Origin: Terriglobia bacterium
GTDB lineage: Bacteria > Acidobacteriota > Terriglobia > Terriglobales > Acidobacteriaceae
Reading direction: 5' to 3'
Assembly: GCA_020072585.1 (NCBI GenBank)
Contig: JAIQGL010000015.1
Span: 1 to 64,000, forward strand
Length of the DNA: 64,000 nt
The position numbers and the translations under genes were made by a program. Shown here in pieces: positions 1,463 through 35,113 of this stretch (position 1 is its first letter; every line of letters starts with the position of its first letter). Below the pieces are notes generated by a model. That model was not told the DNA's origin. It did not search any database and saw nothing but the letters and a program-made list of their open reading frames with translations.

Positions 1463-2167
1463 TTAGCTCGATGTATTTGCGTTAGCGGTAATCTGGTTCC
1501 GCAAATCCCAAAGCTCGCGATACGCGACATGTTGCATACGCTGTTGCAGGACCTCCACGGGCGTCCCCATGGTCCCGATCACGCCGCCGCCGATGATCCG
1601 TTGCGCCAGCTTGAGGTGATGAAAGCGGAATAACTGCATGCGCTCATCGAAGTCCAGCATACGTTCGGCCACGTCGTGCAGAGCAAAGAACTCTTCATGC
1701 CGACGATAGACGTCGTCCGCCGTCAGGCCTTTGTCCGTCAGGTGTTCCTGAAACGCATCGCCGATCCGGGGTGCTATGTGAAGCAGGGAGAGGAATCCCG
1801 GCGAATCCAATCCGCTGCCGTGTCCCAGACCGGCCCGAATGATGTGGTAGTCGTAAGGCGTGATTGTCTCCAGAATGTGCAGCAGCGCGATTGGGTGCTC
1901 AAGCATGGCGTTAGCGCGGCGCATGAGGCGTGCCGAGTTCTGATAATTTCCTGCAATCAGTGCCACACGGGCCCGCTCCAGTTCCCAACTCGCTCCTTTC
2001 ATCAGTAACTCTGAAGACTGATGGACCACCTGAAAGGTAAGCTCGTCGGGGTGCGAAAGCTCCTCTGCGGGTGTCTGCAGAGAAAGCAGCTCGTCGGTGC
2101 GAAGGTATCGTTCGTAGTCGGTGGCGCCTTTGCCTTCAAGGATGGGCTTGTGGAAATCTTTCACCAT
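1463..2167 (-). CDS. kynA: Tryptophan 2,3-dioxygenase family protein
   Basis: The 234-residue protein carries family signatures: YLRTDELLSLQ near residue 22, the helix DELTFQVVHQSSELLMK, a GHGSGLDSPGF segment that replaces the usual R-x-SGFQS, and the heme-helix region with HHLKLAQRIIGGG followed by GTMGTP. These enzymes are cytosolic heme proteins that open the indole ring of tryptophan to N-formylkynurenine. It is shorter than the classical 280-300 residue enzymes, and its divergent motifs place it in a variant subgroup, so the substrate could be another indole. ATG 2167 is preferred over an in-frame ATG at 2218, which lacks a ribosome site. A kynureninase gene is not in the window. Confidence 0.75.
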   Translation of the reverse strand: MVKDFHKPILEGKGATDYERYLRTDELLSLQTPAEELSHPDELTFQVVHQSSELLMKGASWELERARVALIAGNYQNSARLMRRANAMLEHPIALLHILETITPYDYHIIRAGLGHGSGLDSPGFLSLLHIAPRIGDAFQEHLTDKGLTADDVYRRHEEFFALHDVAERMLDFDERMQLFRFHHLKLAQRIIGGGVIGTMGTPVEVLQQRMQHVAYRELWDLRNQITANANTSS

Positions 2168-2351
2168 AGGATCATCGGCTCCTCGGGCTGTTGACGCGAT
2201 CACAGTCGTGACTGGCATCGAACGAGCGCAACGTCGCAGCTTTCACGAGCGCATAGAACAATCATATCAAGTTCATTGCCCGGGAGTTGTCGCTCGGGAC
2301 GGGCCGTTGCTTCAACATCGTTGTGACTCAACAAGTGTTGGAAGGAAGGGG

Positions 2352-2837
2352 CTAAGCGTCCTGCCGGCGAAGGAAGCCTATGATCATCCCGGCCAGAGCA
2401 GCTGTCAGTATGGCGGAACCCAGAATTGCAACAGCCTTGGGGATGGGGCCATGACTCCAGGTCTCTAACAAGACGCCAAGAGGGAAGAGTACGGAGCCAA
2501 GCAACAGAATCCAGGCCAGGAGCAACTTCCATTTCTCAGAAAATCCGACGTGATCCAGTCCTATCGCCAGAACCATGAGCAGCATTGCCAAGCCGATCCA
2601 GTGCCCGTGAACGTCCACCTGGCGGTCATAGGCGTACTTTGCCTGGCGGTACTGAACAAGAGCCTGGTCTCCAGTGGCCGGGTTTCTTTCGGCCGCCGCC
2701 TGGAAGGCTGAAGCGAGCGAATGGCCGATCCCATCCAGCGCCTGGTGCTCGGCGAATACCGCGTACCACAGACCGTAGCTCATCCCCAGTATGGCCAGGG
2801 CGATGCCGCCGCATAAGAGGAGTTGTCTAGCGTTCAT
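2352..2837 (-). CDS. Four-helix membrane protein, single HxH module
   Basis: This 161-residue membrane protein has four hydrophobic segments (about 5-28, 79-98, 106-124 and 134-156). It is one copy of the module found twice in its upstream neighbour: a His after helix 1 (H31), then a D-x-HxH at the start of helix 2 (H77, H79), and a later LFPLGVLLE motif. The ATG at 2837 overlaps the neighbour's stop by 4 bp, so the two are translationally coupled. The conserved histidines suggest heme or metal binding, as in heme-copper-oxidase-like or NnrS-like proteins, but I cannot assign the family. Confidence 0.75.
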   Translation of the reverse strand: MNARQLLLCGGIALAILGMSYGLWYAVFAEHQALDGIGHSLASAFQAAAERNPATGDQALVQYRQAKYAYDRQVDVHGHWIGLAMLLMVLAIGLDHVGFSEKWKLLLAWILLLGSVLFPLGVLLETWSHGPIPKAVAILGSAILTAALAGMIIGFLRRQDA

Positions 2838-3952
2838 GGTTGCGCTTCCTTCGCCATGGCGTCAACGCTACCGGTGTAGCGCAGAATACCGATCCACATG
2901 GCCAGCAAAGACAGGATCACCAACAGCCCGCCGAAATCCGCAACTCCCCCGGCGAGCAGTCCATATTTCATCTCCATGAGTACGCAGACCGGCAGCAAGA
3001 GTGATCCGGAAAGCAAGACTCCCGCCCAGCGGCGCTTCCACACATCGCGGAGTTGCACGTAAGGCTGAAAGAAGGCCAGCAGCATTGCGAGCAGTCCGAA
3101 CTCGATGATGTGAGCGTGTGCTGCGATCTTGACTGCTTTGTCTCCCTGAAGCTGTCCATAAGCGGCCAGGGCCTGATTGATTTGTGCTGGATTCCGTGCG
3201 GCGGCTCCTGAACTCATCTGCGCGAGGATGGTGTAGTCTTCAGCTTCATGGCGGTAGAGATCAACACCCGCGTAGTACGCACCGTGAAGGAAGCCGGCGA
3301 GAACAAGACCGAGGCCTCCCGCAAGCAGCCACCGTGACGCCGTGCTACGTTCGCGCAGAAATTGGTCAGGCGGCGACGGCTGTTTCACACGAAAATACTG
3401 ACCGATACCAGCCAGATAGCTGAGCGTCGCAACCAGCACCAGCAGGCCGCCCAGATCGGCAAAGATACTGGCCCAGCCGATGTCCCGGAGCGGGCTGTAC
3501 GCCAGGCCGACATAGTGAATCAGAAAGACGCCAACCGGCAACAGCACTCCACCGAACACCAGCAGCCATGCTAGACGCCGTCGGATGGCTTCAGAGAATT
3601 TCACCCAGGGCTGTGCCAGTGCCAGCAACAGCGCCAGGTATCCGAAAGTGGTAAGGTGAACATGCGTATCCACCTTGGTGCCCCGGTTCTCAAGAAATTC
3701 GCCGGTGCTTTTGAAATGCGCGGCAACCGCAGCGGTATCGCCCGCCTCGGCAGCATGAGCGGCCGCGGCCAAGCTGGCGCCCACGCGCGCGGCATTCTGA
3801 TGCAGCACGAACACGGCAAAGATATCGCCAAAGACCATTCCTGCGAGAATCATCCCAATACCCGCAAGAGTCAGAAGTCGACGCGTGCTCAACCATTGAA
3901 ACGCCGTTCGGTCCCATTGCGTCGAGGCAATCAACGGTTCGGGTGTGGCCAT
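2834..3952 (-). CDS. Eight-helix membrane protein with two HxH modules
   Basis: This 372-residue protein is an internal duplication. Module A spans about 23-187 and module B about 206-367. Each has a His at the end of helix 1 (H51; H235), an HxH pair 44-46 residues later (H97/H99; H279/H281), and a matching LLPVGVFLI / LLPVCVLME segment in helix 3. A soluble Ala-rich stretch of about 35 residues precedes each HxH. It is first in a minus-strand unit, overlaps the single-module gene by ATGA, and is divergent from the aminobenzoate-CoA ligase. I infer a membrane heme or metal protein, perhaps in electron transfer; no function is proven. Confidence 0.8.
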   Translation of the reverse strand: MATPEPLIASTQWDRTAFQWLSTRRLLTLAGIGMILAGMVFGDIFAVFVLHQNAARVGASLAAAAHAAEAGDTAAVAAHFKSTGEFLENRGTKVDTHVHLTTFGYLALLLALAQPWVKFSEAIRRRLAWLLVFGGVLLPVGVFLIHYVGLAYSPLRDIGWASIFADLGGLLVLVATLSYLAGIGQYFRVKQPSPPDQFLRERSTASRWLLAGGLGLVLAGFLHGAYYAGVDLYRHEAEDYTILAQMSSGAAARNPAQINQALAAYGQLQGDKAVKIAAHAHIIEFGLLAMLLAFFQPYVQLRDVWKRRWAGVLLSGSLLLPVCVLMEMKYGLLAGGVADFGGLLVILSLLAMWIGILRYTGSVDAMAKEAQP

Positions 3953-5889: not shown

Positions 5890-6282
5890 CTAGTCGGGCA
5901 CCACTGCGGTGACCTCGATCTCCACGCGCGCGTTGGCCTCAATCAGCCCTGACACTTCCACCACGGTCATGGCGGGATAGTGCCGGCCGATGATCTCGCG
6001 GTAGGCCACGCCCATTTCCTTCGCTGCCGCCATGTATTCGTTCTTGTCGAGCACATACCAGGTCATGCGGGCAATGTGCTCAGGTTTGGCTTGTGCCTGG
6101 TTCAAGATCTCAACGATGTTCCGCAGTGCCTGGCGAACCTGCGACGCAAAATCGAGCGCAGCAAATTCTCCCTGGGCATTCCAGCCGACAATGCCACTCA
6201 GGAAGACCAGGCTGCCGCGGGTGGCCACGCCGTTGGCGTAACCTTTGGGCCGCGGCCAATTCGGTGGTTGCAGAAATTTCAT
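5890..6282 (-). CDS. RidA/YjgF-family protein, probably non-deaminase type
   Basis: The 130-residue product has the RidA fold: the start MKFLQPPNWPRPKGYANGV, the central SGIVGWNAQG region and the C-terminal VEVSGLIEANARVEIEV. True RidA enamine/imine deaminases carry an Arg in a PARS-type segment; here it reads HYPAMTVVEV, so that Arg is absent and simple imine hydrolysis is doubtful. Last gene of the 9-gene operon. RidA-like proteins recur in aminobenzoyl-CoA clusters, where an amino group must be removed as an imine or enamine. ATG 6282 has GGGAGCGAG directly upstream and is preferred over 6300. Confidence 0.85.
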   Translation of the reverse strand: MKFLQPPNWPRPKGYANGVATRGSLVFLSGIVGWNAQGEFAALDFASQVRQALRNIVEILNQAQAKPEHIARMTWYVLDKNEYMAAAKEMGVAYREIIGRHYPAMTVVEVSGLIEANARVEIEVTAVVPD

Positions 6283-6324
6283 CTCGCTCCCAATCTCCAA
6301 GAGTACTCTCAGATGGACATCAGT

Positions 6325-16212: not shown

Positions 16213-16318
16213 TTTCGCCTCAATTGGTTCAGTTCTTCCTTACAATAGCAGTATTAAACGAACCAAGCGCAGCGCTCGGCTCACGTGGCCTCCGCTGGGG
16301 ACTGGCAAAAATTCTAGG

Positions 16319-16345
16319 TCTAAACATTTTAGATGTCAAATATCT
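16319..16345 (+). promoter_or_regulatory. Candidate MarR operator, copy 2
   Basis: The divergent region between iorA and the TonB receptor contains the perfect palindrome TCTAAA-CAT-TTTAGA (16319-16333), followed by TGTCAAATATCT. Together these 27 bp match 20 bases of the element at 4056-4082 in the same orientation to the downstream plus-strand gene. It ends 55 bp before the receptor ATG and about 107 bp from the iorA ATG. It is a likely operator for the locus MarR, by inference. Confidence 0.5.
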
Positions 16346-16400
16346 TGCCAATCCACTCCGTGAGGAATATATTTTTGGTCGCGCGCGAAGGAGAGAACCA

Positions 16401-19400
16401 ATGCAACTTCAATTTGCCAAGATCGCCGTAAAATTATCGCTGGCTTTGCTGCTGGGCTCGACTGCCTTTAGCCAGACCATAACGGCGTCACTGCAAGGGC
16501 GGGTGTCTGACAATTCAGGCGCCGTGTTGGCCAAGGCCAGCGTTACGGCCACCAATACCGAAACCGGACTTTCCCGGTCCACCGCGACCGATGCCAACGG
16601 CGAATACAATATTGCCCCCCTGCCGGTGGGCAATTACAAGATCGAGGTAAAGGCGGGAACATTTCAGCCGCAGACGCGCACCATCCCGCTGACCGTTGGT
16701 GAAAGTGCGACCCTGGACTTCTCTCTCTCGCCGGGTGAGGTCGAGCAGCAGGTCACCGTCACCACCGAGGCCGCATTGATCGAGCCGACTCGCACGTCGA
16801 CTGATACGGTCATCGAACAAAGTCAGATCAAAAACCTGCCGGTGAACGGCCGCCAGTTCATTGATTTCGCCCTGCTGGCTCCTGGCGTCACAATTGGCGA
16901 CACCACCTCCGGCAGCACGGACGTGATCATTGAGCCGGTCACCAAGCTTTCCTTTGCCGGACAAAACATTCACTACAATTTCATTGCTATCGATGGCGCG
17001 GATAATATCTCCACGGCATCCGGCGTGCAAAAGACCACGCCCTCCACGGACGCGGTGCGCGAGTTTCGCGTGGTCAACAACACCTATAGCGTGGAGGCCG
17101 GACGCGCGGTTGGCGGTATCGTCAACATTATTACCAAGAGCGGAACCAACGATCTGCACGGCTCGCTCTATGAATACCTGCGCAATGACGCGGTGGATGC
17201 CCGCAGTGAGCTGGCGGCCCCGGGCCTGAACAAGCTGCGGCAAAACCAGTTTGGTTTCACTCTGGGCGGCCCGATCAGGAAAAACCGCACTTTCTTTTTC
17301 GGCAATTATGAAGGCCAGCGCCGCAGCGAGAACCCATATTACAACTCCGTGATTCTCGGGAACCTTGCCCTGATCAATCAGTTCAAGACGAATTTTGGCC
17401 TGGCTCCCGAGCAGCTGAACGTAAACCGGAAGAGTGATTACGATAATTTTCTGCTCAAGCTGGACCATTCGTTTACCGATCGCCAATACGTGTTCCTGCG
17501 CTATTTCTTTAATGATGGCAGGCTGACCAATGTCTCACCGCTCAACGATGGGTTTGACTTGCCTTCGGGCTTCAAGGACAACAATCTTCGCGACCAGTCA
17601 CTGGTAGGAAGCCTGTCGTCAACTTTCTCCACGCACCTGGTGAATGAACTGCGTCTGCAATACGGCCACCGGACGTTCGACTTCCCCACGGTTACCACGC
17701 AGCCCCACCTGGAGGTGCTCAACACTTTCACCGCGGGAGTCAACCGTGGCAATCCTGATTTCTACCAGGAGAGCCGCACCGAGATTGTTGACAACGTAAC
17801 CTGGCAGAGCGGCAAGCACACATTTGCTTTTGGTGGCGACTTCAGCCACGTGAATACACTGGAATCGTTCCCCCTGTTTTATCCTTTTGAAGCCGACTTC
17901 GGATGCCTACTGACGATTCAGTGCCCATTCAGCCTGCAGGCCGGGGCGCCTTCAGTAATCTTCTTTGAGCGGTTCCGGGCGCCGAACTTCACCGAGCCCA
18001 CCTTTAACCCCTCAGTATTCCAGGGGCAAAGAATTTCCAGTGCCGTGCGGAACCAGGCGCAAGGCGAGACGCCGCATAATTATGGCGGCCTCTATCTCCA
18101 GCATACCTGGCAAGCCAGTAGCAATTTGAATTTGAACTATGGAATTCGCTACCAGTTTGAAACTTTTCCGGCAAACGTGTTAAACGGCCCGAAGGCGGAG
18201 TTTGATCCGCGTGCCGGCTTTGCCTACCACTTTGGCGGCAAGTACAACGTGGTCCTGCGCGGCGGCGGCGGGATTTTCCATGGAATTATCCCCATGCCCC
18301 TGCTGGCCTGCCAAGCGCCTTCCTGTGGTGGTACCACGGGAACGTTCCCTGGCCGTAACAATGAGAATGCTCTGAATGCAACCACACGGCTGTTTGCCTT
18401 TGCCAGTGCGCCGAACATTACGCAGATTGCGCTATCCAGCATGCTGGCCGGAACCTACCCTGATGCCGCCCCGCTGGGCTTCTGTCCAGGCGGAACAGTC
18501 GCCGGCTGCGGCTTTTTCGGCGATTCAGTGATTGCGCGCTTTGATAAAGACCACAAAGCGCCCTATGGAGTCCAGACCAGCCTGGGGCTTGAATTTCAAC
18601 CGACAAAAGAATCCGCACTGGACATCAGCTTCCTGCGTTCAAAAGGCGTCCATCTGGGAAGCTTCTTCAACGTAAACCAGCCCGATCCCAGCGGCCAGGT
18701 AACGGTGCATAACTCCTCCGGACAGACCGGAACCAAGAACACTTATTTTGCCGCGCCGGGAATTCCGGGTGCGCGCAGTGCCGCTCCGGGCTTCCCCACT
18801 TTGTACGCGGTATATTTTGAGGCCGCTTCGCGGTGGAACTCGTCCTGGAATGGTTTGCTGGTCAATTTCAACAAACGCATGAGCCACCATTTCAGCACCG
18901 GCGTGAGCTATACGTGGTCGAAGGGAATTGATGACGGACCGAACCCCAGCTTTGTTCTCATTCCTCAGGACAGCGCCAATTTCAAGGCGGAACGGGCGCT
19001 CTCCTCTGACAGCGTTGGCCAGCGCTTTGTCTTGAACGCCACACTTGCAGGGCCGACGAAACAGAATGCTATCGTCAACAATTTCCAGCTCAGCACGATC
19101 GTGACGCTTGAGTCGCCGAACTATTTCACCAAGTTTGCCGGCTTTGATGCCAATGGCGACATCTTTGGCAACAATGACCGCGTGGGCATCGAGCCGCGCA
19201 ACACTTTCAAGGGAGATACCTATCAGTCCGTCGATATGAGGATTGCCCGCACGTTCAAGGCAACGGAACGGCTTAACATCGAGGCCATGGCGGAGGCGTT
19301 TAACCTCTTGAATACCGTCAATGTAAGGTTCTTCAATACCGTGTATGGCGCAGCCGACTTCTGTACATTCAATGGTGCGGCCCAGGGGTGTTCGCCTACG

Positions 19401-19499
19401 CAGAGTTTCAAAGACGGATCACCCAACCCGAACTACGGCACTCCACGGGCGCTTTATAACCCTCGGCAGATCCAGTTCGCGCTGCGGTTGACCTTCTGA
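16401..19499 (+). CDS. TonB-dependent outer-membrane receptor, Oar type
   Basis: The 1032-residue protein has a signal peptide (cleavage near TAFS-QT), a carboxypeptidase-regulatory-like Ig domain at about 28-105 (ASLQGRVSDNSGAVLAKASV), a plug region, and a long beta-barrel ending in the terminal Phe of FALRLTF. This architecture is very common in Acidobacteriota for uptake of large or poorly soluble substrates. The start at 16401 has GAAGGAGAGAACC upstream; a longer frame back to 16224 is unlikely. It is divergent from the iorA operon and followed 19 bp later by a cyclase-family hydrolase, so it may import the aromatic substrate (tryptophan, indole compound or peptide). Confidence 0.9.
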   Translation: MQLQFAKIAVKLSLALLLGSTAFSQTITASLQGRVSDNSGAVLAKASVTATNTETGLSRSTATDANGEYNIAPLPVGNYKIEVKAGTFQPQTRTIPLTVGESATLDFSLSPGEVEQQVTVTTEAALIEPTRTSTDTVIEQSQIKNLPVNGRQFIDFALLAPGVTIGDTTSGSTDVIIEPVTKLSFAGQNIHYNFIAIDGADNISTASGVQKTTPSTDAVREFRVVNNTYSVEAGRAVGGIVNIITKSGTNDLHGSLYEYLRNDAVDARSELAAPGLNKLRQNQFGFTLGGPIRKNRTFFFGNYEGQRRSENPYYNSVILGNLALINQFKTNFGLAPEQLNVNRKSDYDNFLLKLDHSFTDRQYVFLRYFFNDGRLTNVSPLNDGFDLPSGFKDNNLRDQSLVGSLSSTFSTHLVNELRLQYGHRTFDFPTVTTQPHLEVLNTFTAGVNRGNPDFYQESRTEIVDNVTWQSGKHTFAFGGDFSHVNTLESFPLFYPFEADFGCLLTIQCPFSLQAGAPSVIFFERFRAPNFTEPTFNPSVFQGQRISSAVRNQAQGETPHNYGGLYLQHTWQASSNLNLNYGIRYQFETFPANVLNGPKAEFDPRAGFAYHFGGKYNVVLRGGGGIFHGIIPMPLLACQAPSCGGTTGTFPGRNNENALNATTRLFAFASAPNITQIALSSMLAGTYPDAAPLGFCPGGTVAGCGFFGDSVIARFDKDHKAPYGVQTSLGLEFQPTKESALDISFLRSKGVHLGSFFNVNQPDPSGQVTVHNSSGQTGTKNTYFAAPGIPGARSAAPGFPTLYAVYFEAASRWNSSWNGLLVNFNKRMSHHFSTGVSYTWSKGIDDGPNPSFVLIPQDSANFKAERALSSDSVGQRFVLNATLAGPTKQNAIVNNFQLSTIVTLESPNYFTKFAGFDANGDIFGNNDRVGIEPRNTFKGDTYQSVDMRIARTFKATERLNIEAMAEAFNLLNTVNVRFFNTVYGAADFCTFNGAAQGCSPTQSFKDGSPNPNYGTPRALYNPRQIQFALRLTF

Positions 19500-28704: not shown

Positions 28705-29859
28705 ATGAAGGAATTCGAACGAACGTTCGATAGTTTATACGAGGGGATGCAGGACCTCTCTTTTGCCGGCGTGCGGAACTGGAAAGAGCTGCACCCCGGC
28801 GCCAAAGCCGTGGCTTTCTTCCCGGTGTATGCCCCCATGGAGCTGGTCCATGCCGCGGGCATGCTTCCGGTGCTGCTGAGCGGCGCGGGTGACCGGCTCG
28901 ATATTCAGCATGCCGACTCCCGCTTTGGTTCATTCATCTGCTCCATCATCAAAACCACCATGGAGATGGCCATGACCGGCCATCTGGAACCGTTTGACGG
29001 ACTGCTTTTCTCTTCCATCTGCGACTCCGCGCGCAACCTCTGTTTCGTGGTAAAGCGCAATTACCCGCAGATGTATGTGGATTTCCTGCATCTGCCGCAC
29101 AGCACTTCGGAATCAAGCGTAGATTTCCTCGACGCCGAATACCGCAGGATCATCACGGAACTGGAGCGGCTGGGAGGGGCGCCGGTCCGGCAAGCAGCTC
29201 TGAACCGCAGCATCGAGCTCTATAACGAACAGCGCCGCCTGGTGCGGTGTCTCTATGATTTGCGCGCGCAAAGCCCGCACCTGCTGCGGGCCTGGGAATC
29301 GTACGTGCTTATCCGCAGCGGCAATCTAATGCCGGTAGAAGCGCACATCGAAGTATTGAAGCAGGCGCTCGACTACCTGCCAACGCGGCCGGGGAAAAAG
29401 AGGGACGCGATTCGCGTGGTGATTGAAGGCGCGTTCTGCGAGCAGCCTCCTCTGGAGCTCATACGCCTGCTCGAAAACGCCGGCTGCGACATTGTGGAAG
29501 ATGATCTGGCGATTGCGCAACGTTGGTTCACGGAAGACGTTCCGCTGACGGGCGATCCAGTGCGGGCGCTGGCGGAGAGTTATGTCCAGCGTTCGGTGTA
29601 TTCGTCGGTGCGCCACGATTTTTCCAAACCGCGCTGGGAAGGCCTGGCGGAGAAGGTCCGCGGCACGCGCGCTGAAGCCGTGATTTTCCTGATCGCCAAA
29701 TTCTGCGAGCCGGCATATTTCGATTTCGTGTTGTTCAAAAAGAAGGTCGACGAAATGGGGCTGCCGCACCTGCTGCTGGAGTTCGAAGAAAAGCTGTTCA
29801 CTTTTGATCGCCTGCGCACGGAAGTGGAGACCTTCGTCGAATCCCTGGTCTTTGATTAA
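28705..29859 (+). CDS. bcrC: Class I benzoyl-CoA reductase, gamma (BcrC/BzdN-like) subunit
   Basis: The 384-residue protein belongs to the 2-hydroxyacyl-CoA dehydratase D-component/BcrBC family. Cysteines at conserved family positions include FGSFICSIIK (about 78), FSSICDSARNLC (about 105-112) and IAKFCEPAYFD (about 333), candidates for [4Fe-4S] ligands. With BcrB it binds benzoyl-CoA and accepts low-potential electrons from the ATPase module to dearomatise the ring. The length equals classical BcrC (about 385). No ribosome site lies within 12 bp of the ATG, consistent with a leaderless start. First gene of the operon, behind box 5. Confidence 0.87.
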   Translation: MKEFERTFDSLYEGMQDLSFAGVRNWKELHPGAKAVAFFPVYAPMELVHAAGMLPVLLSGAGDRLDIQHADSRFGSFICSIIKTTMEMAMTGHLEPFDGLLFSSICDSARNLCFVVKRNYPQMYVDFLHLPHSTSESSVDFLDAEYRRIITELERLGGAPVRQAALNRSIELYNEQRRLVRCLYDLRAQSPHLLRAWESYVLIRSGNLMPVEAHIEVLKQALDYLPTRPGKKRDAIRVVIEGAFCEQPPLELIRLLENAGCDIVEDDLAIAQRWFTEDVPLTGDPVRALAESYVQRSVYSSVRHDFSKPRWEGLAEKVRGTRAEAVIFLIAKFCEPAYFDFVLFKKKVDEMGLPHLLLEFEEKLFTFDRLRTEVETFVESLVFD

Positions 29860-29940
29860 GTAGACCGGATTAAACAGACCAGATTAAGCAGGCTAGATTG
29901 CGCAGACCGGGATTGATCGAGACCAGACTGATTGGAACCT
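29854..29940 (+). repeat. Degenerate 14-bp tandem repeat between bcrC and bcrB
   Basis: About six units of the type GATTAAGCAGACCA follow one another, starting at the bcrC stop codon. Units 1-4 are exactly 14 bp apart; units 5 and 6 are 15 bp and more diverged. The stretch fills almost the entire bcrC-bcrB gap, in an operon whose other genes are nearly touching. It may reflect replication slippage or a spacer affecting expression of bcrB. Confidence 0.8.
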
Positions 29941-29958
29941 GACTCAGAAGGAGCCTCA

Positions 29959-31245
29959 ATGGCCGAAAAATCTGCAAGCGAATACCGCGGTAGCATTCAC
30001 CAGCAGCAGAAAGAACTGATGCTGGATTGGTACCAGCGTCTGGACCACGCGGCCGAGACCGGGGACCCGCCCACAGTGTCCATGATGATTTCCGGCAACT
30101 GTGTGGAATTACTGGAAGGATTTGGCGCCATTCCGCTTTACCCGGAGGTGAATGCGCTGCAGCTGGCCATCCGGCACCAGTCGCTGGAGCCGATCCTTGC
30201 GGCCGAGGAGATGGGCTATGCCGGAGACAACTGCGCCTATGTAAAGGCCGATATCGGCTGCATGCTGAAAGGCATCACGCCTACCGGTGGACGCCTGCCC
30301 AAGCCCACGCTGGTGTTGTGCAACTTTGTCGGCTGCAACACCTACGTCAAATGGTTTGAACACGTGGCCGCATTCACCGGAGCGCCTCTGTATGTGTTGG
30401 ATGTGCCATTTCTCCGCGGCGACCAGCCTTCCCAGGCTGATATTGATTATGTCGTCCGCCAGCTCAAGGAAGTTGTGCTGCAGATAGAGATGCTGACCGG
30501 GCGCAAGTTCGACTATGACCGCTTTCGCCAGTCGGTGGCGTACTCCAGCGAAGTAGAGGACCTCTGGTCACAGATCAAGCACCTGGCAAAGTATTCACCA
30601 TCGCCTTTTGATGCTTATTTTGATGCCATCACCCTGATGGGCCCTTTGTATGTCTACCGGGGCAAGCGTGAGGGTGTGGAGTTTTTCCGCGCCGCGCTCA
30701 ACGAGCTGAAAGAGAAAGCCCAGGCGGGCAACGGCATTTATGAGCAGGAAAGGTTCCGCGTCGTGGTGGAGGGGCCGCCTCCGTATCCCTACTTTCGCAC
30801 CTTCCGTGACATGTTTGCCAGTTGGTCGGCGGTGGCTGTGGCTTCCACATACTCTACCGTCGGAGGGCTGTGGGAGTTCGGCTTCCGGCACGACCCGAAG
30901 TGCCCTTTTGAATCGGTGGCCATGCACATGCTTGCGCAGAACGTCACGAATCGTAATTACCTGCAGCGTTATGACCAGATCCGGCGCTACGTGCAGGAGT
31001 GGAAAGCTGATGGCGTGATCATCCACTTCGTCAAGAGTTGCCGCCTGTTCTCCGCCGGGCAGGGAGACATGCGCGACTACTTTACCAAGCAACTAGGCGT
31101 CCCCACCTTATATATAGAGTCCGACCTGGAAGATCCGCGCTATTTTGCTGAAGCCCAAACCAAGAACCGGATCGATGCCTTCTTTGAATCTCTGGAGCAT
31201 GCCAAACACACAGCGGGGCATGCCGTATTTGAGAGGTCACGATGA
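29959..31245 (+). CDS. bcrB: Class I benzoyl-CoA reductase, beta (BcrB/BzdO-like) subunit
   Basis: The 428-residue partner of BcrC, same family. Conserved Cys segments are SGNCVELLEGFGAIP (about 41), ADIGCMLKG (about 97), CNFVGCNTYVKW (about 117-122) and HFVKSCRLFSAGQGD (about 365), fitting active-site iron-sulfur clusters. Start ATG 29959 has AAGGAG seven bases upstream; a TTG 27 bp earlier is rejected. It overlaps bcrA by 4 bp. Relatives act on hydroxyacyl-CoA substrates, but the downstream had-oah-dch set makes benzoyl-CoA reductase by far the best reading. Confidence 0.87.
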   Translation: MAEKSASEYRGSIHQQQKELMLDWYQRLDHAAETGDPPTVSMMISGNCVELLEGFGAIPLYPEVNALQLAIRHQSLEPILAAEEMGYAGDNCAYVKADIGCMLKGITPTGGRLPKPTLVLCNFVGCNTYVKWFEHVAAFTGAPLYVLDVPFLRGDQPSQADIDYVVRQLKEVVLQIEMLTGRKFDYDRFRQSVAYSSEVEDLWSQIKHLAKYSPSPFDAYFDAITLMGPLYVYRGKREGVEFFRAALNELKEKAQAGNGIYEQERFRVVVEGPPPYPYFRTFRDMFASWSAVAVASTYSTVGGLWEFGFRHDPKCPFESVAMHMLAQNVTNRNYLQRYDQIRRYVQEWKADGVIIHFVKSCRLFSAGQGDMRDYFTKQLGVPTLYIESDLEDPRYFAEAQTKNRIDAFFESLEHAKHTAGHAVFERSR

Positions 31246-32081
31246 GAATTGCAGCAGGAGTGGACGTAGGTTCAACGCAGACAAAAGCGGTGCTGGTGGG
31301 CGCCAACGGTGATGGCGTAAATGTTCTGTCGCGGTCGCTCATCGATACGGGCGCCAACGTTCGCAGGGCGGCGGAAAAGGCCTTCGACGAGTGCTGTCAG
31401 GCGGCAGGCATCTCCCAGTCGGACGTGGGCTTTGTGGTAGGCACCGGCTATGGCCGCTACAACATTTCCTTCGGTCACACCCAGATGACGGAGATCAGCT
31501 GCCATGCCCGCGGCGCCCATTTTCTCTGCCCTGGTACTCGAACTGTCATCGACATGGGCGGCCAGGACGCAAAGGCCATCGGGGTGGGCCCTTCCGGCGA
31601 AGTGCTGGATTTCGTGATGAATGACAAATGCGCCGCCGGCACAGGGCGCTTTCTGGCCAATGCCGCCGAGGTCATGGGACTCGGGTTGGACGATATCGGA
31701 CCGCTCTCTCTCCGCGCGACGCGGCCGGTGAAGATCGCAACCGTGTGCACCGTTTTTGTAGAGTCTGACATTCTCTCGTACCTCTCGCAGGGCAAGCGTC
31801 CGGAAGACATCATGGAGGGTGTGCACCTGGCGATTGCCAAGCGCACACTGTCATTGGCGCGGCGCGTAAACATTGAACCGCTCATCACCATGACCGGCGG
31901 TGTGGCCCGCAATATAGGTATGGTGCGCGCTCTCGAAACCGTGCTGGGACAGAAAATCGTCGTCACCCCGGACGCCCAGTTCATGGGCGCGGTTGGCGCT
32001 GCCCTGTTCTCACTGGAAAAACTTGGCGAAAGTTTTGAGTCAGGCGTTTGGAGGGACCATGCCGTTAGTAGCGGGAATTGA
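31242..32081 (+). CDS. bcrA: Class I benzoyl-CoA reductase ATPase subunit (BcrA/BzdP-like)
   Basis: The 279-residue protein is of the BadF/BcrA/HgdC activator family (ASKHA fold). It has the phosphate-1 motif GVDVGSTQTKAV, EISCHARGAHFL, the phosphate-2 motif VIDMGGQDAKAI, and Cys130 (NDKCAAGTGRF) and Cys169 (ATVCTVFVESD), which correspond in spacing to the two cysteines that hold the inter-subunit [4Fe-4S] cluster in HgdC. ATP hydrolysis drives electrons to the BC module. Thauera BcrA is much longer (about 440 residues); the short form resembles the Azoarcus BzdP type as I recall it. It overlaps bcrB by 4 bp. Confidence 0.87.
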   Translation: MRIAAGVDVGSTQTKAVLVGANGDGVNVLSRSLIDTGANVRRAAEKAFDECCQAAGISQSDVGFVVGTGYGRYNISFGHTQMTEISCHARGAHFLCPGTRTVIDMGGQDAKAIGVGPSGEVLDFVMNDKCAAGTGRFLANAAEVMGLGLDDIGPLSLRATRPVKIATVCTVFVESDILSYLSQGKRPEDIMEGVHLAIAKRTLSLARRVNIEPLITMTGGVARNIGMVRALETVLGQKIVVTPDAQFMGAVGAALFSLEKLGESFESGVWRDHAVSSGN

Positions 32082-32856
32082 TTGCGGATCGGGATTCACC
32101 AAAGCGATTGTGGTGGCTCAGGACTCACCCGGAAGCGAGCTGCGAATTCTCGGCCGGGGGCGCGCGCGCAGCGGCATCAATGTTGACCAGGCAGCCAACG
32201 ATGCGCTGGAACAGGCGCTGGCGGGCAATACAAGGTCGGACCTGAACTACACCGCCGCCACCGGCTTTGGCCGCTACAACCTGAGCTTTCGTGACATCGC
32301 CATTACCGAGATTACCACCGCCGCAAGGGGCGCCTATTTTCTCTTTCCCCGTCCTGGGGCCGTGCTCGACATCGGCAGCCAGACCACGCGGGCCATCGCG
32401 GTCAAGGAAAACGGCCGCGTGAATACTTTCAAAAGCAATGACAAGTGCGCTGCGGGCTCGGGGATGTTCATTGCCCGGGCGGCGAAATATCTGGAGGTGC
32501 CGCTGGAGCAGGTAGGCGAACTTTCCCTGCATGCCGCGCACTCGCACCCCATCAGCAGCGTATGCGCGGTGCTGGCGGAAAGCGAGATCATCAACCACGT
32601 CAGCAGCGGCGTGAGCGTGGAAGACATCTTGCGCGGCATCCATGATTCGCTCGCTGACCGCGCCGGCGCGCTGCTGAAGCGCGTGGGCCTGCACGGCGAA
32701 CTCACCTTTATCGGAGGCGTTGCGCATCAGCAGGGGATGGTGCGGGCGCTGGAGCAGCGGCTCAATGTGAAGGTGAATGTGGCCGAAGATTGTGAATTTG
32801 TTTGCGCGCTGGGTGCGGCCCTGCTTGGTTTGCGCCGCCTGGCCAGCAGGAACTGA
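32059..32856 (+). CDS. bcrD: Class I benzoyl-CoA reductase ATPase subunit (BcrD/BzdQ-like)
   Basis: The 265-residue paralogue of the preceding gene completes the ATPase heterodimer. It keeps GIDCGSGFTKAI and Cys130 (NDKCAAGSGMF) and Cys169 (SSVCAVLAESE) at identical positions, so both subunits can ligate a bridging cluster. Two motifs differ: EITTAARGAYFL lacks the Cys-His of its partner, and the phosphate-2 motif reads DIGSQTTRAI instead of GGQD. ATG 32059 follows GGAGGGACC and overlaps bcrA by 23 bp; a longer frame inside bcrA is rejected. The asymmetry may mean one active and one regulatory ATPase site. Confidence 0.85.
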   Translation: MPLVAGIDCGSGFTKAIVVAQDSPGSELRILGRGRARSGINVDQAANDALEQALAGNTRSDLNYTAATGFGRYNLSFRDIAITEITTAARGAYFLFPRPGAVLDIGSQTTRAIAVKENGRVNTFKSNDKCAAGSGMFIARAAKYLEVPLEQVGELSLHAAHSHPISSVCAVLAESEIINHVSSGVSVEDILRGIHDSLADRAGALLKRVGLHGELTFIGGVAHQQGMVRALEQRLNVKVNVAEDCEFVCALGAALLGLRRLASRN

Positions 32857-32864
32857 GAGGAACC

Positions 32865-33932
32865 ATGTCAATCCAGGGAGCGTATGGATACCAGCTCGCA
32901 ACCGTGGGGAAACCGCTGGATTTGGCGGAGCTGCCGAAACTTGAGCCGGGACCGGACGAAGTAATCGTCAAGGTGGCCGGCTGCGGAGTATGCCACACCG
33001 ATGTAGGCTTTGCCTCGGACGGCGTTCCCACGCGGCATGCCCTCCCGCTGGTGCTCGGGCATGAAATTGCCGGGCATGTGGTTGCCGCGGGCGATAAAGC
33101 GCCCTGGTGGATGGGGCAGGCCGTGATTGTTCCAGCGGTGATCGCCTGCGGAGAATGCCCCGCGTGCCGGGCGGGCCGGCCAACGACTTGCCGGAGACAG
33201 TTCATGCCCGGCAATGATGGCGACGGAGGCTTTGCCACACACGTACGCGTGCCCGCGCGCGGGCTATGTCGCGTTCCGGACAAGCTGCCCCCGGGCGTTT
33301 CTCTGGAAGCGCTGTCTGTTGTGGCTGACGCGGTAACTACTCCTTACGAAGCGATTCGCCGTTCCGGATTGCAGGCCGGTGAAGTGGCGGTGGTTGTGGG
33401 CGCGGGCGGTATCGGCAGTTTTGCGGTTCAGATCGCCGCTGCCATGGGCGCCAAGGCAATTGCAATTGATATCGACGCGGAACGCCTGGAACTGGCCCAG
33501 CAGTATGGAGCGTCTCTCATACTGAATTCCGACCGCGGTGATGAGAAGCAACTCAAGGCCAGCGTGCGTAGCTTTGTCAGTGAGAACGCTTCGCCTGGCT
33601 CGACGCTGAAAATCTTTGAGATGAGCGGCACGCCGGCCGGACAGGTCACGGCGTTCAATCTGCTCGATTTTGGCGCTTACCTGGCCATTGTTGGCTTTAC
33701 GCCGAAAAAAATTGAAGTGCGGCTGTCAAACCTGATGGCCTTTGACGCCACGGCCCGCGGCAACTGGGGCTGTCCCGCGGAACAGTATCCTGCCGTGCTT
33801 GACCTGGTGCTGAGCGGCAAAATCACTCTTGAGCCGTTCATTGAGCGGCATTCATTAAACGAGACCCCGGAAGTGCTTGCGGGAGTCGCCCGGCACGCGT
33901 TTCGCCGTCGCGTGGTGCTGGTGCCAAATTAA
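32865..33932 (+). CDS. had: 6-hydroxycyclohex-1-ene-1-carbonyl-CoA dehydrogenase
   Basis: The 355-residue zinc alcohol-dehydrogenase-type enzyme oxidises the alcohol formed by dienoyl-CoA hydratase, using NAD. Motifs are AGCGVCHTDVGF, GHEIAGHVV, the structural-zinc run CGECPACRAGRPTTC, and GAGGIGSFAVQIA near 180. Specific features of this family, such as RGNWGCPAEQYP near the C-terminus, set it apart from general alcohol dehydrogenases. ATG 32865 has GAGAGG seven bases upstream, 8 bp after the bcrD stop. Position between bcrD and oah supports the assignment. Confidence 0.9.
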   Translation: MSIQGAYGYQLATVGKPLDLAELPKLEPGPDEVIVKVAGCGVCHTDVGFASDGVPTRHALPLVLGHEIAGHVVAAGDKAPWWMGQAVIVPAVIACGECPACRAGRPTTCRRQFMPGNDGDGGFATHVRVPARGLCRVPDKLPPGVSLEALSVVADAVTTPYEAIRRSGLQAGEVAVVVGAGGIGSFAVQIAAAMGAKAIAIDIDAERLELAQQYGASLILNSDRGDEKQLKASVRSFVSENASPGSTLKIFEMSGTPAGQVTAFNLLDFGAYLAIVGFTPKKIEVRLSNLMAFDATARGNWGCPAEQYPAVLDLVLSGKITLEPFIERHSLNETPEVLAGVARHAFRRRVVLVPN

Positions 33933-33949
33933 ATGCCTGGGAGGCAGTC

Positions 33950-35113
33950 ATGAAAGATCATAATCTGGTTGAAAACTTCATTCCTCACGAAATCCTGGTG
34001 GAACAGAGGCCGGTGCGCGACCGCGAGGGCAAGACCGTTCCGGGACTGCACAATGTGTGGATCACTCTGAACAATCCTGCTGAACTGAACAGCTACACGA
34101 CTTCCACGGCGAAAGAAGTGATCCTGGCGTTGCGCGAAGCCAGCAATGATCGCGCCGCGGTGGCCGTGGTGCTGACCGGCGCGGGCACGCGCGCTTTCTG
34201 CAGCGGCGGCAACACTCGGGAATATGCCGAGGTCTACGCAGGAGCGCCGGCCGAGTATCGCCAGTACATGCGGCTGTTCAATGACATGGTCACGGCCATC
34301 CTGCATTGCGACAAGCCTGTGATTTGCCGAGTGAACGGCATGCGCGTGGGCGGAGGGCAGGAGATCGGCATGGCCTGCGACTTTTCCATCGCCAGCGATC
34401 TGGCCGTCTTCAGCCAGGCGGGGCCGAAGCACGGTTCCGTGCCGGATGGCGGCAGCACAGACTTCCTTCCGCTATACGTTGGAATTGAGCGTGCCATGGC
34501 CAGTGCGACCCTGTGCGAACCCTGGAGCGCCCACCGCTTCTATGCGCTCGGCGGCCTCACGCAGATCGTTCCTGTGCTCAAAGCGAATGGAAAATGGGCG
34601 CCGAATCCGCTGGTGATCAATGACCGTTTGCTGGATGAATACGGACGCATGGTGCTGGGCGAGTGGAAGACGGGCGAGGAGAAGGATCGCGCCAGGAAAT
34701 TCATGGCTGAGGCGACCGTTGATCTGCAACTTTTGGATGAAGCGGTGGAAAGCATGTGCACCAAGCTGCTCTACACCATGCCCGACTGCCTGACCAAAAC
34801 CATCGAGAGCCTGCGCAAGCACAAGCTGGAGCACTGGGACCGCAACCGTGAGACCAGTCGCGCATGGCTGGCCCTGAACATGATGACCGAAGCCAACGCG
34901 GGCTTCCGCGCGTTTCACTTCGGCACGAAAGAGCAGCGCGAAGTGGATTTTGTGCGGCTGCGGCAACGTCTGGGAGAAGGCGCGCGCTGGGGAGAAGAAC
35001 TGATCGAGGAAGTCGCGCCGTGGGTTCCTAGAACAGAGACATCTAGAACAAAGGCATCTGGAACAGAGACATCAAAAACAGAGACGGCCAATCCGGAAAT
35101 GGCAAAGGTGTGA
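33950..35113 (+). CDS. oah: 6-oxocyclohex-1-ene-1-carbonyl-CoA hydrolase
   Basis: The 387-residue crotonase-superfamily enzyme adds water and opens the ring of 6-oxocyclohexenecarbonyl-CoA to 3-hydroxypimelyl-CoA. Key features are the N-terminal VWITLNNPAELNSYTT, the oxyanion segment GAGTRAFCSGGNTREYAEV, and CRVNGMRVGGGQEIGMACD. The core length fits the family. The last 27 residues form a degenerate pentapeptide tail (RTETS, RTKAS, GTETS, KTETA), probably a recent slippage product. Start 33950 is preceded by GGGAGGCAG; the gene follows had by 17 bp. Confidence 0.92.
   Translation: MKDHNLVENFIPHEILVEQRPVRDREGKTVPGLHNVWITLNNPAELNSYTTSTAKEVILALREASNDRAAVAVVLTGAGTRAFCSGGNTREYAEVYAGAPAEYRQYMRLFNDMVTAILHCDKPVICRVNGMRVGGGQEIGMACDFSIASDLAVFSQAGPKHGSVPDGGSTDFLPLYVGIERAMASATLCEPWSAHRFYALGGLTQIVPVLKANGKWAPNPLVINDRLLDEYGRMVLGEWKTGEEKDRARKFMAEATVDLQLLDEAVESMCTKLLYTMPDCLTKTIESLRKHKLEHWDRNRETSRAWLALNMMTEANAGFRAFHFGTKEQREVDFVRLRQRLGEGARWGEELIEEVAPWVPRTETSRTKASGTETSKTETANPEMAKV
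35030..35089 (+). repeat. 15-bp tandem repeat encoding the Oah C-terminal tail
   Basis: Four units of the type AGAACAGAGACATCT, each 15 bp, encode RTETS-RTKAS-GTETS-KTETA after the conserved end of oah. The period is a multiple of three, so the frame is kept. Units differ by 2-5 bases. Confidence 0.8.

Follow-up and report, generated by a model that had tools for sequence, protein, structure and literature searches.

Heme-copper oxidases reduce most of the oxygen used in respiration, and their fold displays a threefold pseudo-symmetry. Two histidine residues on helix X of these enzymes serve two different hemes, and the CuB ligands are a histidine on helix VI and an HH pair on helix VII. To our knowledge, the oxidase repeats have diverged too far to reveal their origin. 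Styrene oxide isomerase (SOI, StyC) employs its heme as a Lewis acid, and its pathway also includes a flavin monooxygenase. In the SOI structure report, H58 is described as the ligand of heme b where the subunits of the trimer meet, and the authors noted that a DALI comparison revealed no substantial structural relatives (PMC11374702). A second report assigns the same role to the equivalent H57 of the Rhodococcus SOI and place both termini in the cytosol (PMC12502698).

In this study, a window of 64,000 nucleotides from a Terriglobia bacterium (contig JAIQGL010000015.1, positions 1 to 64,000) was analysed. A sequence-only reading had pointed to three copies of a four-helix membrane module with histidine motifs, divided between two overlapping genes that are called 'two' and 'one' here. 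Their features are listed below with window coordinates; row counts refer to two alignments, with 55 rows for 'two' and 53 for 'one'.

2834-3952 (-): 'two', a 372-aa membrane protein with module 1 (approximately residues 21-192) and module 2 (approximately residues 203-366)
2352-2837 (-): 'one', a 161-aa membrane protein that carries module 3
2834-2837 (-): 4-base overlap of the 'two' stop and the 'one' start, read from the sequence
3800-3802 (-): H51, where the membrane-embedded part of helix 1 of module 1 ends, in 55/55 rows
3656-3664 (-): HxH of module 1 (H97 and H99, each in 55/55 rows), putative heme ligands
3110-3118 (-): HxH of module 2 (H279 and H281, each in 54/54 rows; the one remaining 'two' row stops before them); H279 aligns with the SOI heme ligand H58
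2601-2609 (-): HxH of module 3 (H77 and H79, each in 53/53 rows)

The sequence-only reading was correct on the two reading frames, on their lengths and on the overlap of four bases, and the histidines H51/H97/H99, H235/H279/H281 and H31/H77/H79 as well as the L-x-P-x2-V motif (at P139, P321 and P119) lie where it had placed them. The GC content by codon position of both genes is similar to that of three neighbouring genes. Scans of the two proteins against Pfam and NCBIfam yielded chance-level matches only (best E 0.45 and 0.052), a single-sequence search of the PDB with 'two' returned no match, and PADLOC reported nothing. When 72 modules from 24 loci were compared with Pfam and NCBIfam, the matches listed were weak and inconsistent.

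That the three four-helix modules are homologous was borne out by profile matches and by the identity between modules. Applied to a naturally fused relative (L072), the 'one' profile recognised module 1 with an i-E of 6.8e-19, module 2 with 3.5e-14 and module 3 with 7.6e-70, and within-locus identity between modules averages 26, 27 and 32% over the 24 loci. In a tree of the 72 modules the three module positions separate cleanly (support 0.72, 0.97 and 1.00), with modules 1 and 2 as the nearest pair, suggesting that the triplication probably predates the spread of the family.

The only invariant columns of the 72-module alignment are G22, H77, H79 and P119 ('one' numbering), the last of which is present in 53/53 'one' rows. 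The motif of a single histidine followed by HxH had been proposed for every module. It holds for modules 1 and 3, where H51 and H31 (53/53 'one' rows) are constant. Module 2 retains the HxH only: H235 is a histidine in 38 of 55 'two' rows and a glutamine in nine, and the residue aligned with H51 and H31 is Y233, a tyrosine in 47 of 55 rows. The residues E88, K93, D95, W160 and D166 of 'two' are also invariant, as are E327 and D339 wherever a row extends that far (53 rows). In 'one', the same is true of E30, Q32, Y70 and W80. D166 in module 1 and D339 in module 2 are matched by a non-acidic residue in 'one'. This asymmetry, together with Y233 at the place of H51 and H31, suggests that the three module sites are not equivalent.

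Among 61 related genomes, with the source genome counted, nine contain the pair, and both genes were present every time. One scan of genome contigs yielded 54 loci, of which 48 are titled Acidobacteriota or their classes and six are Gammaproteobacteria (two untyped, one Haliea, two other Halieaceae and one Woeseiaceae). The overlap of four bases recurs in 46 of the 48 contig-scan loci with both genes called and in all eight of the loci L023-L030, five loci belonging to both sets. 'one' is uncalled in 6 of 57 non-duplicate neighbourhoods; five of these contigs end inside 'two', and the sixth is the fusion. In the latter (L072:7917-9608 (+), found in one MAG), 'two' and 'one' are joined in frame into a protein of 564 residues and 12 helices. 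The gene pairing and this natural fusion support the 12-helix complex that had been proposed. Across the phylum the family is rare: the 'one' profile found 4 of 297 genomes, including one (G080) with a distant single-module relative only. A pooled module profile (A13) gave ten matches at E up to 0.01 in the 297 phylum genomes, with strong ones in G000, G018 and G313, three to single-module relatives and four near chance. G313 departs from the pairing: a shortened 'one' (L149:7405-7848 (+)) lies directly behind the outer-membrane receptor gene, with no 'two' in the 16-kb stretch covered, as a result of either a deletion or an assembly fault.

By sequence, the nearest relative of the modules is SOI (NF045734; PDB 8pnu/8pnv), with a similarity that is marginal when the distant relative L132 is left aside. 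SOI was the best PDB match of the 'two' profile (E 0.84, in three collinear pieces on module 2) and reached E 6.8 in another profile search of the PDB; it was absent when A13 was applied, where a quinol:cytochrome c oxidoreductase subunit came out best (E 0.45). These PDB matches are weak by themselves, and the case for SOI comes from profile comparison against decoys. NF045734 was unlisted for 'two' and 'one' at E up to 1, and absent among the 25 of 39 families listed for the 72 modules. Direct alignment of the 72 modules by hhalign with five SOI proteins from plasmid records gave a probability of 54, E 1.3e-4 and a score of 33.2. Decoys for this score stayed at or below 19.8 (60 column shuffles) and 19.6 (52 oxidase and NrfD alignment windows), and reversed SOI scored 13.4. 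Module 2 alone gave a probability of 38.5 and E 3.3e-4, and 'one' alone a probability of 4.

L132 (1486-1974 (+)) is a distant SOI relative from the same phylum, with 25% identity and an SOI-profile E of 5.0e-10. When L132 and the three proteins L136-L138 were added, the hhalign probability was 87, with E 3.7e-6 and a score of 42.3 (60 shuffles at most 17.7). Addition of L136-L138 without L132 brought no gain (probability 47, E 2.0e-4), and the E of 3.7e-6 therefore depends on L132. By themselves, L136-L138 align with SOI at E 0.038, and at 0.0026 with L132. They are single-module four-helix relatives with an HxH-type motif and no Pfam match (L136:1339-1758 (+), L137:1345-1785 (+) and L138:1501-1941 (-)), and possibly homotrimers.

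These alignments point to a homologous four-helix module, including the place of the heme ligand H58, that the family would have in common with SOI, the relationship being weak for 'one' alone. The first histidine of the HxH aligns with H58 and the second with Gly60; N64, N99 and Y103, named as catalytic in the SOI structure report (PMC11374702), are aligned with different residues in the modules. According to this report and that on the Rhodococcus enzyme (PMC11374702, PMC12502698), SOI likewise consists of a four-helix module with cytosolic termini and has H58 where helix 2 starts, with heme at the interfaces of a trimer. However, the SOI homotrimer is made of identical subunits that have a single histidine at the ligand place and catalytic residues of their own, whereas 'two' and 'one' contain three diverged modules, encoded by two genes or, when fused, by one. 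Each of these modules has an HxH, the hairpin that joins helices 1 and 2 is longer than in SOI, and the neighbouring genes are different.

An AlphaFold2 model of 'two' based on the 55 rows (pLDDT 92.3, pTM 0.89) contains eight main helices, and in each module helix 1 is connected to helix 2 by a long helical hairpin. All 50 VIA matches listed for it are, by description and length, subunit I of an oxidase or NO reductase (Z 15.3-19.8, rmsd 3.8-6.1). The best is the cbb3 subunit CcoN (8smr) with Z 19.8, rmsd 4.0 over 274 residues and 13% identity; as a guide, helical models without a clear match reach a best Z of approximately 14, and up to 13 at rank 50. With the L072 fusion model (pLDDT 80.4, pTM 0.79), 46 of the 50 matches listed are oxidases or NO reductases, with Z up to 12.6, which is below the guide value, and the remaining four are unrelated membrane proteins. 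The fold argument therefore leans on the two-module model. Most VIA matches of both models cover about 260-310 residues in sequence order, roughly two of the three modules. Foldseek yielded no E below 1e-3 with either model; for 'two', oxidases stood on top with a probability of up to 1.00, and the lists also contained low-probability matches to receptors and transporters. The models thus predict for 'two' the subunit I fold of the heme-copper oxidase superfamily (PF00115), confidently for the eight-helix half only.

The proposed likeness to heme-copper oxidases consequently stands as a fold, including 12 helices in total and an HxH borne by a helix, helix X in the case of the oxidases, but not by sequence. 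The COX1 profile (PF00115) did not match 'two' or 'one' at E up to 1, profile searches of the PDB retrieved no oxidase, and hhalign of the modules against 14 oxidase sequences gave a non-significant E of 0.13, in an alignment where the HxH coincides with the helix X HFH. Conserved residues in the CuB-ligand pattern were absent from both the 'two' and the 'one' alignments. In addition, the modules are still 26-32% identical, and the ring of three modules would seem to be ordered opposite to that of the oxidases. The ring order is read from the end points of the aligned ranges only (module 1 on helices I-IV and module 2 on IX-XII; module 1 on V-VIII and module 3 on IX-XII), with the helix numbers assigned as we presume them to be in the oxidases.

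NnrS (PF05940) and DUF2871 (PF11070) are likewise membrane proteins carrying HxH-type motifs. The suggested kinship to NnrS found no counterpart in sequence, as PF05940 did not match 'two' or 'one' at E up to 1 and hhalign of the modules with two NnrS proteins of the same genome gave E 0.11 and 0.33. DUF2871 touched 3 of the 72 modules, at E 0.034 or worse among the matches listed. As a lead it was rejected: it had matches in 5 of 199 genomes, none above the cut-off, and three of them fell on the HFH region of ordinary oxidases. By these tests the family lies outside SOI, the heme-copper oxidases and NnrS, but it uses a module of the kind seen in SOI and the oxidases. The NnrS proteins themselves (L021:568-1950 (-) and L022:694-2280 (-), on contigs C52 and C13 of the source genome; PF05940 41.7 and 47.7 bits, cut-off 28) are also found by the COX1 profile. 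A 150-residue single-module protein of the phylum (L122:1486-1935 (+)) is a one-third-size relative of oxidase subunit I; it scores above the COX1 cut-off (43.7 versus 34.8 bits) and just below that of DUF2871, and its HTH aligns with the module HxH at E 0.0016 and a probability of 16 (reversed, 0.42).

Tentatively, and at somewhat less than even odds, the four-helix heme module of SOI and the 12-helix oxidase core could belong to one superfamily, in which 'two' and 'one' represent a second, independent and still legible triplication. The triplication appears independent of that in the oxidases because the modules are 26-32% alike and have no significant sequence similarity to oxidases. If this is true, the family is a living parallel to the step from a homotrimeric heme protein to oxidase subunit I. 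The combination of recognisable module copies, an oxidase fold in the two-module half and kinship to SOI would link SOI with the oxidases, and with such a bridge, ideas on how the oxidase core arose could be put to the test. Among the matches listed in limited open-access literature, no paper dealt with this family or connected SOI to the oxidases. The family would also add an unannotated, probably heme-containing complex to the inventory of soil Acidobacteriota and some Gammaproteobacteria.

The surroundings of the pair were compared in 57 neighbourhoods (BLAST E 1e-8), many of them cut by contig ends. The following neighbours in the window are referred to below.

5890-6300 (-): Rid-family protein; a homologue directly adjoins 'two' in the closest relative, L023
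10196-12481 (-): flavoenzyme of the bifunctional salicylyl-CoA 5-hydroxylase/oxidoreductase type (NF006101, 1300.7 bits, cut-off 1078)
16224-19499 (+): outer-membrane beta-barrel protein with a CarboxypepD_reg domain (PF25183, PF13620), labelled 'TonB/Oar type' by us

No partner gene is constant across the 57 neighbourhoods. The commonest neighbours are homologues of the outer-membrane beta-barrel receptor (45/57), and genes for molybdenum hydroxylases of the Cox/xanthine-oxidase type occur in 39; at least six of the 18 loci missing the latter end within or close behind 'two'. A ketopantoate-reductase-like gene is present in 32, a luciferase-like protein in 29, a PhsA-like/4Fe-4S/NrfD set in five and a homologue of the salicylyl-CoA 5-hydroxylase type in four. 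The catabolic cluster of the window itself differs and includes the Rid protein, a thioesterase, an acyl-CoA dehydrogenase and the salicylyl-CoA 5-hydroxylase-type flavoenzyme. This gene context supports the supposed tie to aromatic or other oxidative catabolism, the shared theme being the oxidative breakdown of aromatic or nitrogen-containing compounds with no single substrate in common. The companion idea, a tie to tryptophan metabolism, proved local to the window and was ruled out as a shared theme: the divergent tryptophan-2,3-dioxygenase-like protein encoded at 1463-2218 (-) (112.5 bits versus an NCBIfam cut-off of 390.7) has no counterpart in the stretches around the 57 related loci.

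The reading we favour, with a probability of about 0.42, is a split (2+1) pseudo-trimeric heme-b membrane complex for electron transfer in oxidative catabolism. 'two' and 'one' would form one inner-membrane complex in which the three four-helix modules make up a pseudo-trimer. The HxH lies on the periplasmic side, as seen from the charged loops. Its first histidine, at the periplasmic start of helix 2, would be the heme b ligand. In a helix, residues i and i+2 point in roughly opposite directions, and the second histidine, on the opposite helix face, would reach the heme of the neighbouring interface. An HxH in each of three modules amounts to six histidines at three interfaces, which would suffice to bind three bis-His hemes close to the periplasmic face. 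We infer the heme, the number of hemes, their coordination and the role of the complex, and regard three putative heme sites as plausible; there could be up to three inter-module hemes, probably bis-His, in the manner of the two hemes that helix X serves in the oxidases. The complex would pass electrons from the oxidation of aromatic or nitrogen-containing substrates, by the molybdenum hydroxylase, the PhsA/NrfD-type complex and flavoenzymes, to the respiratory chain. Three possible bis-His hemes favour electron transfer, as does the need of the molybdenum hydroxylase and NrfD complex neighbours for electron acceptors.

Because the nearest sequence relative is a heme Lewis-acid isomerase, a catalytic role is a serious rival, even if we consider it unlikely. 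One or more of the interface hemes would then serve as a Lewis acid in the rearrangement of an epoxide or arene oxide, itself the product of a flavin monooxygenase of the luciferase-like or salicylyl-CoA hydroxylase type encoded nearby. Beyond the relationship to SOI itself, such an enzyme would fit the luciferase-like neighbours, the relatives of the salicylyl-CoA hydroxylase at four loci and in the window, and the gene for a Rossmann-type NAD/FAD-binding protein that follows L132. However, the invariant second histidine would close the sixth coordination site, and the residues that are catalytic in SOI are replaced. The monooxygenase neighbours are inconstant, and the two luciferase-like proteins that were scanned scored best on models of F420-dependent oxidoreductases, below the cut-offs. 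Electron transfer is somewhat likelier than isomerase chemistry.

A non-heme transporter or assembly factor, whose histidines bind copper, zinc or a substrate, is improbable. The prevalence of the outer-membrane receptor gene suggests uptake, yet the relationships to SOI and to the oxidases both indicate heme at this histidine position, and among all features of the modules the HxH is the most constant. Least probable is a gas enzyme or sensor for O2 or NO with the oxidase-like fold. In its favour, the fold matches oxidases and NO reductase, invariant histidines lie close to the periplasmic face, and modules 1 and 3 have an additional invariant histidine at the end of helix 1 that could bind a second metal. 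Against it, the conserved residues include neither an HH pair nor an HxxxY pattern, and all 26 of the 26 genomes of the group that were searched contain ordinary COX1 genes.

Two further observations concern other genes. In the Gammaproteobacteria loci L073, L077, L078 and L079, the pair is accompanied by F420-linked genes (CofE, Mer-like luciferase-family proteins and NpdG), with CofE in L073 at 263.4 bits (cut-off 180.65) and NpdG in L079 at 202.7 bits (cut-off 149.8). The window also encodes, at 28705-35113 (+), class I benzoyl-CoA reductase-like subunits, of which B and C are below the cut-offs, together with a 6-hydroxycyclohexene-carbonyl-CoA dehydrogenase and a 6-oxocyclohexene-carbonyl-CoA hydratase, both above the cut-off. 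The benzoyl-CoA-reductase-like genes share the genome with oxygenase-type aromatic genes.
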